The notes below the pieces were generated by a model that worked only from the letters and a program-made list of their open reading frames with translations, was not told the DNA's origin and did no database searches. A program made the position numbers and the translations under genes. Of a DNA stretch of 64,000 nt, positions 8,014 through 58,082 are shown piece by piece. Within the stretch, counting starts at the first letter, position 1. Each line of letters starts with the position of its first letter. The DNA comes from Actomonas aquatica (GTDB lineage Bacteria > Verrucomicrobiota > Verrucomicrobiia > Opitutales > Opitutaceae): contig NZ_CP139781.1 of NCBI RefSeq assembly GCF_019679435.2, forward strand, positions 3,162,001 to 3,226,000, given 5' to 3'.

Positions 8014-8935
8014 TGCGCATCCGCCACAGCCCCATCCGCAGCGTGGCCGACCGCTGGATATTGAGCTGTTCAGCCAGCCAGACCAGAGAAGCCCCCGTTT
8101 CGCGCTGTAGCTGATCAGCCACCTCGCATTTCCAACGCTCCGCTCGCCTTGTCGCTTGGAGATCGGCCGTCGACCGATGCCTCGCTTTGAGAATCTCGCC
8201 CAGCCGCGCGCGCCAACGCGCGTGATTGGCTTCCTGAGGTGTCGTGTATTCGGCATGCGGCTTGGATGCTACCGCCGCCGCGTTATCGGTCGCCACCACC
8301 TGTTTCCATTCCGTTGCGCCAATCGCCCAGCCCCGGGTGTAATTACTCCGCTCTCGCAGCGGCTTCCCCTGCTCGATGGCGTGAATCTCTTTGAGGTAGT
8401 CGAGATAGCGCAGCCAGTCTTTCCGCCGACTCTGATTCCAACCCAAGGTCCCCAGCCACGGGTTCGCAGTGAGTCCAGGAGCGGAATCCCTGCTGAGGTA
8501 ACGCCTTAAGCTGGACCACCGAAAATTCCCCAACTGCGCCGGCTCGACGACAAACGCCCGCAATGGATTCAGATGAATGTAGTCCGCAACCCTGGCCCAC
8601 ACCTCCTCGTCCTGTAACAGCAGCGCTTTGTAACGACCTTGGAACAGGTGACCATTCTCACCGCGGAGACGGTTAAAACGTGCTGCAAAGGTCGCTTGCA
8701 GCCAGTGCATCCCCGCCGAGAGATTCGGCACCGGGGTGCGGACGGCCAAATGGTAGTGATTTCTCATCACCACATACGCTCCCAGCTCCCACTCATATCG
8801 CTGAACCGCCTCCTCCAACGTTTCCACAAAACGCTGCGCCGCTCCCGCCGAGCCAAACACATCCCACCGATAGTTTCCTCGGTTAATCACATGGTAAATC
8901 GCCCCGGGGTATTCGATTCGCGCCGTTCTTGGCAT
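8006..8935 (-). CDS. REP-associated tyrosine transposase (RAYT, Y1_Tnp)
   Basis: 309 residues. HUH/Y1 transposase of the IS200/IS605-related RAYT group: start MPRTARIEYPGAIYHVINRG, metal-binding HYH at His60/His62 within VVMRNHYHLAV, FQGRYKALLL, and a catalytic Tyr candidate (Tyr119) in ADYIHLNPLRA. A C-terminal extension ends in a helix-turn-helix-like segment (GASLVWLAEQLNIQRSATLR). RAYTs nick and rejoin single-stranded DNA at REP hairpins. The gene sits inside a perfect 30-bp inverted repeat, and its stop codon lies within the left copy. It appears intact. Confidence 0.93.
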   Translation of the reverse strand: MPRTARIEYPGAIYHVINRGNYRWDVFGSAGAAQRFVETLEEAVQRYEWELGAYVVMRNHYHLAVRTPVPNLSAGMHWLQATFAARFNRLRGENGHLFQGRYKALLLQDEEVWARVADYIHLNPLRAFVVEPAQLGNFRWSSLRRYLSRDSAPGLTANPWLGTLGWNQSRRKDWLRYLDYLKEIHAIEQGKPLRERSNYTRGWAIGATEWKQVVATDNAAAVASKPHAEYTTPQEANHARWRARLGEILKARHRSTADLQATRRAERWKCEVADQLQRETGASLVWLAEQLNIQRSATLRMGLWRMRKM

Positions 8936-54071: not shown

Positions 54072-54947
54072 TTAAGCGCCCACCGGGTGCCAGGTCGTCT
54101 TAAACTCGAGCAAATCGCGGATGGCGTAGAGGGACGGCATGGGACCATTGCCCGCCAACCAGTCGATCGGTTCCTCGGCCTTGAGCAGGCGCGTGCGCTT
54201 CACGGAGTCGGCCGCCTTCTGCTCGACGGACTCGCGTTCCTCGGCACTCAGCACACCGCTCAGAGCGCGGATGCCAACATGACTGGCCATGGTTGATACC
54301 ATCTCGGCGCGGAAACCGGTGAGCAGGTTGACCACTCCACCCGGCAGGTCGCTCACGGCCAACATCTCGCCGAGCACGATCGACGCGTAAGGCGCGGTCT
54401 CACTCGCCACGGCGACGACGCTGTTGCCCGAAGTGATGGCCGGCAGGATGAGGGTCATGAGCCCGAGCAGCGGCGCCTCGTCCGGCGCGACCACGGCGAT
54501 CACGCCCATGGGATCGGTCACGGTGAAATTGAAGTGCGGCGACGCGACCGGATTCACGCTGCCGAGCAGCTGCTCGTATTTATCGGTCCAGCCCGCGTAG
54601 TGCACGATGCGATCGATCGTCGCAACGACCTCGGCCTTGGCAGCGGCGGCGGTCACGCCGGGCGTGAGCAACAGTGCGGCTTCGAGTTCGGCGGCGCGCG
54701 GCTCGATCATCTCGGCGAGGCGGTAGAGGATCTGTCCGCGGTTGTAGCCGGAGCGCCCGGCCCAGCCACCGCCCGCCTTCCCGGCGACCTCCACCGCGTT
54801 GCGCACGTCTTTGCGCGTGCACTGCGGAACATGGGCGAAAAAGTTCCCCTTCGCATCATTGAGCGCAAACGTCCGCCCGCTCTCCGAACGGATGAACTTA
54901 CCCCCCACATAACACTTGGGCGTTTTGGAAACAGTCAGACGAGACAT
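54072..54947 (-). CDS. Aldehyde-dehydrogenase-like protein lacking the catalytic part
   Basis: 291 residues from MSRLTVSKTP. Resembles the N-terminal, NAD-binding half of ALDHs (KCYVGGKFIRSESGRTF; RGQILYRLAEMIEPRAAELE; GVIAVVAPDEAPLLGLMTLI; PGGVVNLLTGFRAEM), but residues ~215-291 do not contain the catalytic Glu (LELGGK) or Cys (GQxCC) motifs, and the length is well short of ~480. Two-ALDH-plus-deoC operons are known, and this short form could be a partner or regulatory subunit of the full-length enzyme at 55508-57001. No internal stop suggests it is not a recent pseudogene. Confidence 0.8.
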   Translation of the reverse strand: MSRLTVSKTPKCYVGGKFIRSESGRTFALNDAKGNFFAHVPQCTRKDVRNAVEVAGKAGGGWAGRSGYNRGQILYRLAEMIEPRAAELEAALLLTPGVTAAAAKAEVVATIDRIVHYAGWTDKYEQLLGSVNPVASPHFNFTVTDPMGVIAVVAPDEAPLLGLMTLILPAITSGNSVVAVASETAPYASIVLGEMLAVSDLPGGVVNLLTGFRAEMVSTMASHVGIRALSGVLSAEERESVEQKAADSVKRTRLLKAEEPIDWLAGNGPMPSLYAIRDLLEFKTTWHPVGA

Positions 54948-54972
54948 GGCAGAAAAGATGGAACGAGGATTT

Positions 54973-55018
54973 GTTTTTTTAACCACGGATGGACACGGAT
55001 GACTTCGCTAACGCTACG
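54973..55018 (+). repeat. Inverted repeat flanking GxxExxY gene, copy A
   Basis: ~46 bases beginning with a T-run and containing CCACGGATGGACACGGATG and then CTTCGCTAACGCTACG. Near-perfect reverse complement of 55438-55484 (about three differences). Confidence 0.9.
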
Positions 55019-55037
55019 TCTTCTATATCGGAGAAAT

Positions 55038-55421
55038 TCAGAGAACCACGCGCTCCCATTGCAGTTTGGCGTGTTTAAAATTGATGATCAGACCCACGGT
55101 CAGACCCGTTATCCTTAAATAGTTTATCATCTGGCCACGTTCGTGCCCGGTGATCCGATCGATCACCTTGGTATCGACGATTACCCGCTCATCCACCACC
55201 AGATCCGGGATATACTCGCCAACCTTTCGCCCCCGAAACTCGACTCGATACGAGGGCTGTTGTTCGAAGGGCACATGCTCTTCTTCGAGGGCGACCACCA
55301 ACGCGTTCTCATACGGCTTCTCATGCAGTCCATGACCTATCTCCCGCGCCACTGCCATGGCACATCCGAGAATCTGGTAGCAGATATCCTCCTCCCTCAA
55401 AGATGCATCATCTCCATTCAT
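55038..55421 (-). CDS. GxxExxY protein (PD-(D/E)XK nuclease-like)
   Basis: 127 residues from the ATG at 55421 (MNGDDASLREE); an ATG at 55457, inside the flanking repeat, would add 12 residues. Family hallmarks: EDICYQILGCAMAVAREIGH, then GHGLHEKPYENAL (the GxxExxY motif), FEQQPSYRVEFRGRKVGEYI, PDLVVDERVIVDTKVIDRI with the Asp and Lys typical of PD-(D/E)XK nucleases, and QMINYLRITGLTVGLIINF. The family is annotated as a nuclease-like fold of unknown role. The gene interrupts an ALDH-ALDH pair and is bracketed by inverted repeats. Confidence 0.9.
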   Translation of the reverse strand: MNGDDASLREEDICYQILGCAMAVAREIGHGLHEKPYENALVVALEEEHVPFEQQPSYRVEFRGRKVGEYIPDLVVDERVIVDTKVIDRITGHERGQMINYLRITGLTVGLIINFKHAKLQWERVVL

Positions 55422-55437
55422 TTCGATTGGTTTGGGG

Positions 55438-55484
55438 CGTAGCGTTAGCGGAGCCATCCGTGTCCATCCGTGGTTAAAAAAAAC
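55438..55484 (-). repeat. Inverted repeat flanking GxxExxY gene, copy B
   Basis: Mirror of copy A: CGTAGCGTTAGCGGAGCC, then CATCCGTGTCCATCCGTGG and an A-run. It overlaps the upstream alternative start codon of the GxxExxY gene. Confidence 0.9.
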
Positions 55485-55507
55485 AGCGTCGGGCGGGGAG
55501 GCGTTAC

Positions 55508-57001
55508 TCAGGTGAGTTTCACGTAGTCGGCGAGGCCGTGTTTGCCGCCTTCGCGGCCGAAGCCGCTTTCTTTGTATCCACCAAACGGCGACGCCGGGTC
55601 GAACTTGTTGTAGGTGTTGGCCCAGACGACTCCCGCTTTAAGCGCCGTGCTCATCTTCAGGATGCGCGAGCCTTTGTCGGTCCACACGCCGGCACTCAGT
55701 CCGTAGGCGGTGTTGTTGGCCTTCTCGATCGCCTCCTCCACCGTGCGGAAGGTGAGGATCGACAGCACCGGACCAAACACTTCTTCCCGCGCGATGCGGT
55801 GACTCAGCTCCACGCCGCGGAACAAGGACGGGCGGAAGAACCAGCCCTTCTTCGGCAACGGGCAGCTGGGCTGATACAACTCCGCGCCCTCGTCCTGACC
55901 GGCCTGCACCAGCTCGGCGATCTTGTCCAACTGAGTCTTCGAGTTGATCGCGCCGATGTCGGTGTTCTTGTCCATCGGATCACCCACGCGCAGGGTGCGC
56001 ACGCGATTGCGCAGTCGCGTGAAGACCGCGTCGGCCACACTCTCCTGCACCAGCAGGCGCGAGCCCGCACAACACACGTGACCTTGGTTGAAAAAGATGC
56101 CGTTCACGATGCCCTCCACCGCCTGGTCGAGTGGCGCGTCGTCGAAGACAATGTTGGCCGCCTTGCCGCCCAACTCGAGGGTGAGCTTTTTGCCGGTGCC
56201 GGCCGTGCTGCGCATGATCACCTTGCCGACTTCGGTGGAGCCGGTGAACGCCACCTTGGCCGCCGCCGGATGATTGACCACTGCGGCACCCACGTCGCCC
56301 GCGCCGGTCACGATGTTGACCACGCCCGGCGGCAGTTCCGCCTCGGCGATGATCTCGGCAAACTTGAGCGCGGTGATCGACGTCGTCTCGGCCGGCTTGA
56401 GCACGACCGTGTTGCCGGTCGCCAAAGCCGGAGCGAGTTTCCACGCCAGCATGAGCAGCGGGAAATTCCACGGGATCACCTGCCCCACCACGCCGTGCGG
56501 CACCGGGGTCGCGCCCGGAAACGCGTAAGCGAGTTTGTCGGCCCAGCCCGCATGATAGAAGAAGTGTGCTGCGGCCATCGGCACATCGAAGTCGCGCGAC
56601 TCCTTGATCGGCTTGCCCCCGTCGAGCGTCTCCGCCACCGCAAATTCACGCGCCCGATCCTGCAGCAGCCGGGCGAGGCGGTAGAGGTATTTGCCGCGCT
56701 CGGCACCCGGCAACGTCGCCCAGGCCGGGGCGGCCTTGGTCGCGGCGGCGTAAGCGGCGTCGACGTCCTTGGCCGACGCGTGTGGGATCTCCGCCAGCGG
56801 CTGCTCCGTCGCCGGGTTGATCGACGCAAAATACTTCCGGCTCTTCGGCGCGACAAACTTGCCATCGATAAAGAGCGTGTAGCGGTCCTTCAGTTTCGGA
56901 TCCGCCGACTCCGGCGCGGGATCAAACTCCCACAGATCGCCAAACACCAACTCAGGCTCAGCACGACGGGAACGGGATTTTTTCGGAGTAGAAACAGGCA
57001 T
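55508..57001 (-). CDS. Aldehyde dehydrogenase (NAD(P)+)
   Basis: 497 residues from MPVSTPKKSR; the nine codons further upstream run into a repeat. Full ALDH: substrate/cofactor motifs PWNFPLLMLAWKLAPALATG, AFTGSTEVGK, catalytic Glu276 (LTLELGGKAANIVF) and catalytic Cys310 in NQGHVCCAG. It has a basic, ~40-residue N-terminal extension. Located between deoC and the truncated ALDH, it probably oxidises acetaldehyde or the C3 product of deoxyribose-phosphate breakdown (inference from context). Confidence 0.95.
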   Translation of the reverse strand: MPVSTPKKSRSRRAEPELVFGDLWEFDPAPESADPKLKDRYTLFIDGKFVAPKSRKYFASINPATEQPLAEIPHASAKDVDAAYAAATKAAPAWATLPGAERGKYLYRLARLLQDRAREFAVAETLDGGKPIKESRDFDVPMAAAHFFYHAGWADKLAYAFPGATPVPHGVVGQVIPWNFPLLMLAWKLAPALATGNTVVLKPAETTSITALKFAEIIAEAELPPGVVNIVTGAGDVGAAVVNHPAAAKVAFTGSTEVGKVIMRSTAGTGKKLTLELGGKAANIVFDDAPLDQAVEGIVNGIFFNQGHVCCAGSRLLVQESVADAVFTRLRNRVRTLRVGDPMDKNTDIGAINSKTQLDKIAELVQAGQDEGAELYQPSCPLPKKGWFFRPSLFRGVELSHRIAREEVFGPVLSILTFRTVEEAIEKANNTAYGLSAGVWTDKGSRILKMSTALKAGVVWANTYNKFDPASPFGGYKESGFGREGGKHGLADYVKLT

Positions 57002-57020
57002 GGGAAAATCGGGAGAGGGG

Positions 57021-57120
57021 TTAACCACGGATGAACACGGATGGCTTCACTAACGTTCCGCCGGCACTGTCTCAGCGCGTAGCCGGTAGGCGAAGCTATC
57101 CGTGTTCATCCGTGGTTAAA
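57021..57120. repeat. Palindromic repeat pair of the CCACGGATG family without a gene
   Basis: Two inverted arms, ~57021-57047 and ~57092-57120, share the core AACCACGGATGAACACGGAT and flank a ~45-base centre. It sits between ALDH and deoC. Same family as the repeats around the GxxExxY gene (one-base variant in the core), so it looks like a non-autonomous, gene-less derivative. Confidence 0.85.
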
Positions 57121-57128
57121 AAAAGAGG

Positions 57129-58082
57129 TTAATAGGAGCCGGCGGCTTCGCTGAATTCGTAGGCGGCGCGGTAGGTGCCGGTCTTCATTTTCACGAGCTG
57201 GCGCAGGAGGTCGTTAAGCAGGGACGAGGCGCCGAAACGGTAGCGGCGGTTGTTCAGCCACTCGTCGCCGAGGGTTTCCTTCACCGCCACCAGGAAGGTG
57301 AGCGCCTGTTTGGCCGACTTGATGCCGCCGGCCGGTTTCATCGCGATGGCCACGCCTGTATCCAAATAATGGTCACGGATGGCATCGAGCATGACCTGGT
57401 TGTTGCCCAGCGTCGCGTTGGCCGAGGTTTTGCCGGTGGAGGTTTTGATGAAATCGTTTTCGCGGATCACCCGCATGGCCAGAAACGAGGCCGCGCGAAT
57501 GTTGTCGTAGGTCTCCAGCTCGCTGGTCTCGAGGATGACCTTGAGCGTCGCCTCCCCGCAGGCTTCGACCACCGCCGCAATTTCGTCCTGCATGCGACCG
57601 AACTCGCCCGCCAGAAACGTGCCACGGTTGATCACCATGTCGATCTCGTCCGCCCCGTCGGCCACCGCCGCCTTCACTTCGGCCAGACGAGTTTTGATCG
57701 GCGCCTGGCCGCTCGGAAACGCGGTCGCGACCGAAGCGATGCGCACGGGTGCTTTGGTGCCGAGCGCCGCCCGGGCGTGTTTTACCATCGACGGATACAC
57801 ACACACCGCCGCGACCTGCGGGATGTCGGGGTCGTCGTGCGGATGCAGGGCCTTGGCGCAGAGCGCCTGCACCTTGCCCGGCGTGTCCTTACCCTCGAGG
57901 GTGGTGAGATCGACCATGGTCGTGGCGAGTTTAAGGCCCGCGATCTTCGAGCCGGTCTTGATGGAACGGGTCCCGTATTTGGCGACCCGTTCTTCAATCC
58001 CGACCGCGTCGACGGTCCCGATCTCACTGAACAACCGGCGAAAGGCATTGGCTCCGGAAGGCATGGCGGCACGTTCAGCCAT
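57129..58082 (-). CDS. deoC: Deoxyribose-phosphate aldolase
   Basis: 317 residues. Class I aldolase splitting 2-deoxyribose-5-phosphate to acetaldehyde and glyceraldehyde-3-phosphate. Schiff-base Lys213 in DFIKTSTGKTSANATL, proton-relay Lys249 in AIAMKPAGGIKSAK, and Asp145/Asp148 in GADEIDMVINRGTFLAGE. Longer than E. coli DeoC (259) by an N-terminal stretch, as in many non-enteric bacteria. It starts the deoC-ALDH-ALDH-like series and fits a deoxyribose or deoxynucleoside degradation operon in which the ALDHs remove acetaldehyde. Confidence 0.95.
   Translation of the reverse strand: MAERAAMPSGANAFRRLFSEIGTVDAVGIEERVAKYGTRSIKTGSKIAGLKLATTMVDLTTLEGKDTPGKVQALCAKALHPHDDPDIPQVAAVCVYPSMVKHARAALGTKAPVRIASVATAFPSGQAPIKTRLAEVKAAVADGADEIDMVINRGTFLAGEFGRMQDEIAAVVEACGEATLKVILETSELETYDNIRAASFLAMRVIRENDFIKTSTGKTSANATLGNNQVMLDAIRDHYLDTGVAIAMKPAGGIKSAKQALTFLVAVKETLGDEWLNNRRYRFGASSLLNDLLRQLVKMKTGTYRAAYEFSEAAGSY

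Follow-up and report, generated by a model that had tools for sequence, protein, structure and literature searches.

The window, a stretch of 64,000 nucleotides from the genome of Actomonas aquatica (contig NZ_CP139781.1, positions 3,162,001 to 3,226,000), holds a small unit in which a gene of the large GxxExxY family lies between two inverted arms. We lean towards reading this unit as a minimal element of about 0.5 kb with terminal inverted repeats (TIRs), whose own PD-(D/E)XK nuclease mobilises both gene-bearing and gene-less copies. That the unit is real, general and mobile is well supported: its boundaries are defined, it recurs in different phyla, its sites occur both filled and empty, one copy is internally deleted, its arms match, and repeat number is associated with the gene. 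The part of GxxExxY as the mobilising nuclease, first proposed in an earlier note on the window, is suggested by correlation. As far as the open-licence literature searched shows, the unit is undescribed so far, and no mention of four repeat strings plus one more was found there.

The GxxExxY unit, its arms and its gene-less copies

The left terminal arm of the unit (54974-55018, + strand) starts with a T-run and AACC, followed by two CACGGAT units (54984-54990 and 54994-55000) and then a subterminal stretch. The right terminal arm (55438-55482, - strand) is its mirror, with units at 55456-55462 and 55466-55472. The arms are 45 nt each and 96% complementary, with 419 nt between them. The earlier note had described inverted repeats of about 46 bp with about three differences; its coordinates and layout stood, but the 45-nt arms differ at two positions. 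Two 7-nt units are recognisable per arm in this copy, three being the usual number elsewhere. The GxxExxY gene itself (55038-55457, - strand) encodes a protein of 139 amino acids. If the upstream ATG is used, the right arm overlaps the first codons of the gene; an alternative start at 55421 lies outside the arm.

A second unit (57021-57119), which has no gene, was also seen in the earlier note. It is an inward-facing pair of 28-nt arms (57021-57048 and 57092-57119), 96% complementary and 43 nt apart, and is predicted to fold as a hairpin (z -8.2). Two units were folded in all, and the other gave z -7.5. Allowing up to three mismatches, the window contains the core of the repeat four times, where shuffled sequence gives an expectation of 0.08. 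A search of Rfam gave no match: six loci were compared at the gathering score, and positions 54800-57300 of the window at thresholds up to E 0.1.

The view that these copies belong to a repeat family was borne out by the whole 6.1-Mb genome (one contig), where the core is found 141 times with up to two mismatches and the reversed pattern once. Orientation and pairing were counted in stretches of this genome chosen around cores. These stretches hold 110 distinct arrays, 76 of them in close inward-facing pairs and 34 without a recognised partner. There are 38 inward pairs within 700 bp, and only one of them, the GxxExxY unit, bears a gene; its core-to-core spacing is 473 bp, and that of the others is 65-201 bp. 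When array neighbours at most 250 bp apart are considered (n = 39), 37 are inward-facing, two are on the same strand, and none is outward-facing.

Just beyond the T-run, on one or both sides, many gene-less units of A. aquatica carry the GC-rich motif GAGAGGCAGG or CCACTCCACCGC, and related motifs border other array types in sister genomes. These outer motifs could reflect a target preference or be part of a larger unit. Many gene-less units also carry subterminal stretches, for example GGCTTCGCCTACCGGCTACGC / GGCTCCACTACCGTTCCGCC (as in window 57043-57097), which resemble GTAG-tagged repetitive extragenic palindromic sequences (REPs). The GTAG-tagged palindrome is absent from the arm units, and the CTACC/GGTAG stretch of the gene-less units is subterminal.

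The architecture of the arms was examined at 136 GxxExxY loci, drawn from relatives (30 loci), from named genomes of many phyla (80 loci) and from further stretches. Identical arm rules were applied 0.9-2 kb away as shifted controls (n = 574). The units end in inverted arms, usually made of three 7-nt CRCNNAN units with 1-3-nt spacers. A loose rule found both arms at 100/136 loci and at 5/574 shifted positions. A strict rule found both arms at 83/136 loci, at 2/574 shifted positions, and at 1/30 loci of four-helix-bundle genes. An earlier test by plain alignment of the flanks, which omitted L124 and L173 (less than 120 bases of flank), reached a score of at least 14 in 71/108 loci, compared with 30/540 cross-paired and 22/108 direct flanks. 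Plain alignment under-counted the arms because the spacers vary, and a unit-chain detector was therefore used instead. All 20 genes of six genomes were also inspected by eye, and have arms on both sides except L288, with L289 unclear.

The two arms of a unit agree in more than their words. Three units per side are present in 62 of the 83 strict-rule loci, and in 57 of these 62 both spacer lengths are identical on the two arms (13.5 by permutation). Base 2 of the unit, which was not used in picking loci, is mirrored in 54, 51 and 55 of the 57 loci (37, 36 and 40 when permuted); unit bases 4-7 contributed to the picking. The outer 3-5 nt of the arms are also mirrored, and spacer bases are mirrored slightly above chance (60/104 vs 47.9, P 0.003; 58/119 vs 46.6, P 0.0075). 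Inward of the third unit no mirroring was found in these loci (201/669 vs 190.9, P 0.18). Mirrored units at equal spacer lengths, with spacer bases only weakly mirrored, would fit a protein that recognises words placed at given distances, and would not be expected if a long continuous hairpin were all that mattered. Units and spacer lengths are common to both arms, and the arms seem to be a modular recognition sequence.

GxxExxY genes sit within co-directional gene runs beyond expectation. By a simple open reading frame (ORF) rule, both neighbours are co-oriented with the gene at 57/89 loci and both are opposed at 8/89. Taken one side at a time, the upstream neighbour is co-oriented at 73/94 loci and the downstream neighbour at 70/93.

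Repeat number, arm type and occupied sites

The number of repeats tracks the presence of the gene, a link that the earlier note had proposed to check. Arrays in relatives were counted with the pattern AACCRCRRAKN{1,3}CRCRRAK, which gave 2,674 arrays and 43 control matches in 95 relatives. The 28 relatives without TIGR04256, the GxxExxY profile, hold 26 arrays in total and no more than 6 apiece, with 4 control matches. In the 67 relatives with it there are 2,648 (39 control matches), or about nine per gene, so the majority of arrays do not flank a gene. When genome size and the two families Y1_Tnp and TIGR02436 are held constant, the partial rank correlation of array number with GxxExxY is 0.33 (p 0.0013); the corresponding values for Y1 and TIGR02436 are 0.13 each (p 0.22). 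One relative, G035, combines 113 arrays with a single GxxExxY gene, and neither Y1_Tnp nor TIGR02436 has a match in it.

The same direction is seen across the phylum. Among 288 genomes, at least 10 arrays are present in 88/162 with the gene and in 6/126 without it, the latter being the genomes outside the list of 162 positives. The repeats are thus not equally common without the gene, an outcome that the earlier note had named as fatal to its proposal. Of the 17 families having both gene states, 14 show this direction. The 288 phylum genomes overlap with the 95 relatives; among the 265 genomes not used before, at least 10 arrays are found in 74/144 with the gene and 6/121 without.

The type of arm follows the protein subfamily. 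Nearest protein neighbours at no more than 70% identity agree in the last unit base at 93/100 loci (permuted 56.7, maximum 77) and in spacer signature at 39/100 (permuted 14.8, maximum 30). The closest proteins to that of the window are 53-57% identical and come from Planctomycetota, a PVC-group (Planctomycetota-Verrucomicrobiota-Chlamydiota) and a Nitrosomonas metagenome-assembled genome; they likewise have T-ending units and three-nt spacers. In six genomes, gene-arm classes match 0.38 of the listed arrays of their own genome, compared with 0.14 for other assignments (P 0.0097), with some genes of A. aquatica, G001 and G020 not entered. L277 in A. aquatica and L283 in G001 are apparently orthologous GxxExxY units at a similar ABC-transporter spot. 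In one species the two arms have CACGAAA, in the other mostly CACGGAA; the two arms of a unit thus seem to have changed in concert.

The site of the window unit was compared in 21 genomes, A. aquatica included, along the genes deoC, ALDH2 and ALDH1 (ALDH, aldehyde dehydrogenase). The unit lies between the ALDH genes in 8 of these (A. aquatica, G001, G006, G007, G033, G046, G049 and G060), some of which have further genes there, and in the deoC gap in one (G055). No GxxExxY match was found at the locus in 11 genomes, including G045 with a deleted remnant, and in G029 the contig stops too soon for the comparison. In a later look, G020 was found filled too. The unit is therefore not fixed at this position; conservation here across the genus would, by the earlier note, have refuted its proposal. 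The arms at the ALDH locus read CGGAT in A. aquatica, CAGAT in G001, and CGAAT in G007 and others, and are decayed in G006. The gene tree groups A. aquatica with G007 (99/93) and the species tree groups it with G001 and G006 (94/91), and simple vertical descent therefore does not fit.

Cleaner empty sites than the ALDH locus are found within two conserved operons. In S. parapaucimobilis the unit lies between fabD and fabG; the site is empty in S. paeninsulae and Rhizobium indigoferae, which were read, and six more records are equally short there by their table lengths. In Bacteroides finegoldii it lies between radA and a gene for an FAD protein, where Parabacteroides distasonis has 13 bp and Phocaeicola massiliensis a different ORF. 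In the G045 remnant, close to ALDH1, both arms are present together with the two ends of the gene, but the middle of the gene is gone (read by eye). This copy shows directly how a gene-less pair can come about.

The nuclease, its proposed role and the alternatives

The window protein matches TIGR04256 GxxExxY (125.2 bits, cut-off 35) and PF13366 PDDEXK_3 (115.8 bits, cut-off 22), both far over their cut-offs, and the identity given in the earlier note holds. TIGR04256 is its sole NCBIfam match up to E 0.001. No known transposase domain was found in the unit with Pfam and NCBIfam profiles, PF13366 and TIGR04256 alone matching. GxxExxY carries a predicted PD-(D/E)XK active site, with the pattern D85, D95, K97 and Q109 in the window protein; in the 75 sequences compared D85 and K97 never vary, and D/E95 and Q109 hardly do. 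The AlphaFold2 model (mean pLDDT 90) has a PD-(D/E)XK fold, and its best structural matches belong to the Cas4 / lambda-exonuclease branch of these nucleases. These are SSO0001 (4ic1; Foldseek E 1e-3, Z 10.3), which we take to be a Cas4, and LHK-Exo (3syy; Foldseek E 7.5e-4). Unlike that branch, GxxExxY is set in a repeat-bounded unit.

The PDB holds no sequence relative of the protein up to E 1. With the window protein as query, relatives were found in none of 50,697 phage records and in 8 of 72,556 plasmid records, and a pattern-limited scan of viral contigs gave one. No match was found in PHROGs up to E 0.01, and 0 PADLOC families matched up to E 0.01. A phage or defence gene was rejected as its identity on the absence of PHROGs and PADLOC matches at that threshold and the lack of any phage record. 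No printed function for GxxExxY, TIGR04256 or PF13366 was found in the open-licence literature searched; PMC8934634, in its accessible passages, mentions GxxExxY, and its subject is not GxxExxY mobility.

Based on the arms and the fold, a mechanism can be proposed. GxxExxY, probably as an oligomer, would bind the unit set of an arm, laid out roughly as T(n)-AACC and then 7-nt CRCNNAN units at fixed 1-3-nt spacings. It would act on a hairpin or cruciform formed by the two arms, and may cut this DNA at or near the border of AACC and the T-run. Repair or replication would then put a copy elsewhere. In this way gene-bearing and gene-less units may be moved or copied into intergenic spots inside transcribed operons, with no target duplication. 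Gene-less pairs, which resemble miniature inverted-repeat transposable elements (MITEs) or the hairpin-forming REP doublets called REPINs, would arise by deletion of the gene from the unit.

Several observations weigh against this proposal. We know of no PD-(D/E)XK protein that is a transposase on its own. No clear target-site duplication was found in the 38 pairs of A. aquatica (best z 2.2) or in 82 gene-bearing loci, where the highest z among 210 combinations was 3.4 (6/82, a 3-mer located 24 nt out); old copies may have lost theirs. Even the loose arm rule fails at 36/136 loci, the 136 loci include duplicates (L032 and L172 are apparently the same place, L155 and L158 near-alike), and the third GxxExxY gene of A. 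aquatica (L288) has no clear downstream arm. The insertion at the ALDH locus may be old, with repeated loss, and the covariation of gene and arm could in part be mere linkage by descent. Taken singly, array number in the 95 relatives is rank-correlated not just with GxxExxY (rho 0.65) but also with TIGR02436 (0.59) and Y1_Tnp (0.53). Six of the 126 phylum genomes without TIGR04256 hold at least 10 arrays (G196, G219, G275, G283, G297 and G348). Among the six genomes with classified arms, arrays matching an entered gene-arm class make up none of those in G057 and 9% of those in G020, whose fourth gene (arms CACGGAT, spacers 3,3) would add just 8/45 arrays. The earlier note's candidate for the mobiliser is thus favoured by its correlation with the repeats, but not by the main array family of these two genomes.

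The array-rich genomes without TIGR04256, the main gene-less families of G057 and G020, and the single correlation with Y1 would also be expected if GxxExxY were a passenger. Another enzyme (a Y1/RAYT protein, where RAYT is a REP-associated tyrosine transposase, a repair pathway of the host, or a gene that has escaped recognition) would then move the arrays, and GxxExxY would be cargo caught between two copies. Y1_Tnp matches are present in 70/95 relatives. We consider this unlikely, as matching arms bracket the gene at most loci and arm type goes with protein subfamily. Furthermore, G035 with its 113 arrays and G024 with 26 have no Y1_Tnp match, and neither Y1 nor TIGR02436 is significant in the partial correlation. 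Five of the nine Y1_Tnp genes of A. aquatica were inspected: inverted flanks with a different sequence are clear in four and weak in the fifth, and the stretches around the five contain no core at up to three mismatches. Y1/RAYT was rejected as the mobiliser, since the inspected genes have other flanks and array-rich genomes without Y1 exist.

It is rather improbable that the unit is an RNA element like the intervening sequences (IVSs) of 23S rRNA. Such a unit would lie within transcripts, its arms would fold and be processed as RNA (cf. RNase III on 23S rRNA intervening sequences), and it would spread via RNA and not DNA hairpins. The preference of GxxExxY genes for co-directional runs fits this, although co-orientation may merely reflect read-through expression. 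S23p/four-helix-bundle genes have a like layout with heptamer arms, and a paper on a Coxiella IVS (PMC4990558) reports a stem at the terminus and, next to the start of S23p, heptameric repeats. The unit, however, contains no reverse transcriptase, gene-less pairs are numerous and near-symmetrical, and the fold is of a DNase type, with SSO0001 and LHK-Exo as best matches.

It is very improbable that the arrays are immobile and serve GxxExxY in a chromosomal role (repair, recombination), as regulatory or structural sites that multiply through gene conversion or slippage during replication: the L277/L283 unit apparently stays put while both arms changed and the gene is rare off chromosomes (one in the viral-contig scan, 0 phage and 8 plasmid records), but empty sites in operons, sites that differ among species, up to 13 gene copies per genome and the deleted derivative in G045 all speak for movement.

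Relation to known systems and neighbouring features

The earlier note had likened the layout to RAYT/REPIN or to insertion sequence (IS)/MITE systems. The likeness stood for the hairpin doublets and the shared termini, and not for the enzyme, as neither Y1 nor another known transposase domain was found. The comparison with RAYT/REPIN follows Bertels & Rainey 2011 (PMC3116915). In both systems a gene lies beside matching inverted repeats, there are many gene-less, hairpin-capable inverted doublets (37 inward vs 0 outward here), and the repeat type goes with the protein type. The RAYT/REPIN enzyme is a Y1 HUH transposase, whereas GxxExxY is a PD-(D/E)XK protein; the RAYT/REPIN repeat is a palindromic REP, whereas the GxxExxY arms are spaced 7-nt units. 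The GxxExxY gene also differs in lying inside the inverted pair and in being multi-copy (up to 13 per genome). The unit resembles RAYT/REPIN in its way of working. It does not belong to that group, because Y1 (PF01797) is missing from the unit and PF13366 is the only Pfam domain of the protein. Like an IS with TIRs and its MITEs, it comes as a gene-bearing unit and as internally deleted, non-autonomous copies with shared termini. Unlike them it has no known transposase domain, and its TIR is a modular word set; no clear target duplication was detected, which old copies may have lost.

In layout the unit is like the S23p IVS, because TIGR02436 (S23p) genes are here bracketed by period-7 inverted arrays. 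Going by the Coxiella paper, both are about 0.4-0.5 kb long and have a single small ORF, stem-forming terminal inverted repeats and short direct repeats, which in the IVS are reported as heptamers upstream of S23p. At the TIGR02436 loci the inverted-repeat score reaches at least 14 in 18/30, against 5/150 cross-paired flanks. The best period is 7 or 14 in 28/30 of them, and 8-10 in 84/108 GxxExxY loci. The unit is not an S23p IVS element, because protein and location differ: the window protein is not S23p (TIGR02436) and has another fold, and the window unit lies between two ALDH genes and not in a 23S rRNA gene. Its unit spacing is also 8-10 nt instead of 7, and it has large numbers of gene-less copies. 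Inverted heptamer arrays flank the S23p genes at loci L061-L090 and at the A. aquatica copies L070 and L210, and their words vary from genome to genome (e.g. TCAG-, GTAG- and GGAGTCA-type).

A broader idea can be put forward tentatively. The GxxExxY units might be a new class of bacterial mobile DNA, in which a stand-alone PD-(D/E)XK nuclease recognises a terminus made of several words and coded by their spacing. They might also join the S23p/four-helix-bundle genes in one larger superfamily of "word-array" elements, whose small, mutually unrelated proteins would share one hairpin-based way of spreading. If the unit is a mobile element driven by its own nuclease, GxxExxY would be the enzyme behind a mobile unit that ranks among the smaller gene-bearing ones, a common class of so far unassigned intergenic repeats (CACRGAG/CACGGAT arrays) would be accounted for, and one more nuclease chemistry would be found among DNA movers. 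Since unit letter and spacer length can be set against protein subfamily, this arm code opens DNA recognition to direct testing. The S23p parallel would offer a fresh handle on the purpose of 23S rRNA intervening sequences and their protein.

The neighbours of both window units are two ALDH-family genes and a DeoC-family aldolase; profiles confirmed these families and, with them, the earlier note's placing of the GxxExxY unit between two ALDH genes with deoC beyond. ALDH1 (54072-54986, - strand) encodes an aldehyde-dehydrogenase-family protein, and its listed ORF starts within the left arm; the true start is probably near 54947. ALDH2 (55508-57028, - strand, as listed) encodes an aldehyde dehydrogenase whose true start is probably 57001, and the gene-less unit lies between it and deoC. 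Elsewhere in the window, a Y1_Tnp (PF01797) match is present at 8573-8902 (genome 3170573-3170902), separate from the five Y1 genes inspected for their flanks. In G055 (C1:2194000-2233000; L264 and L265) some thirty arrays of two classes form a cluster, nearly all on one strand, and the part that was read (L265) contains nested tandem duplications and short ORFs.

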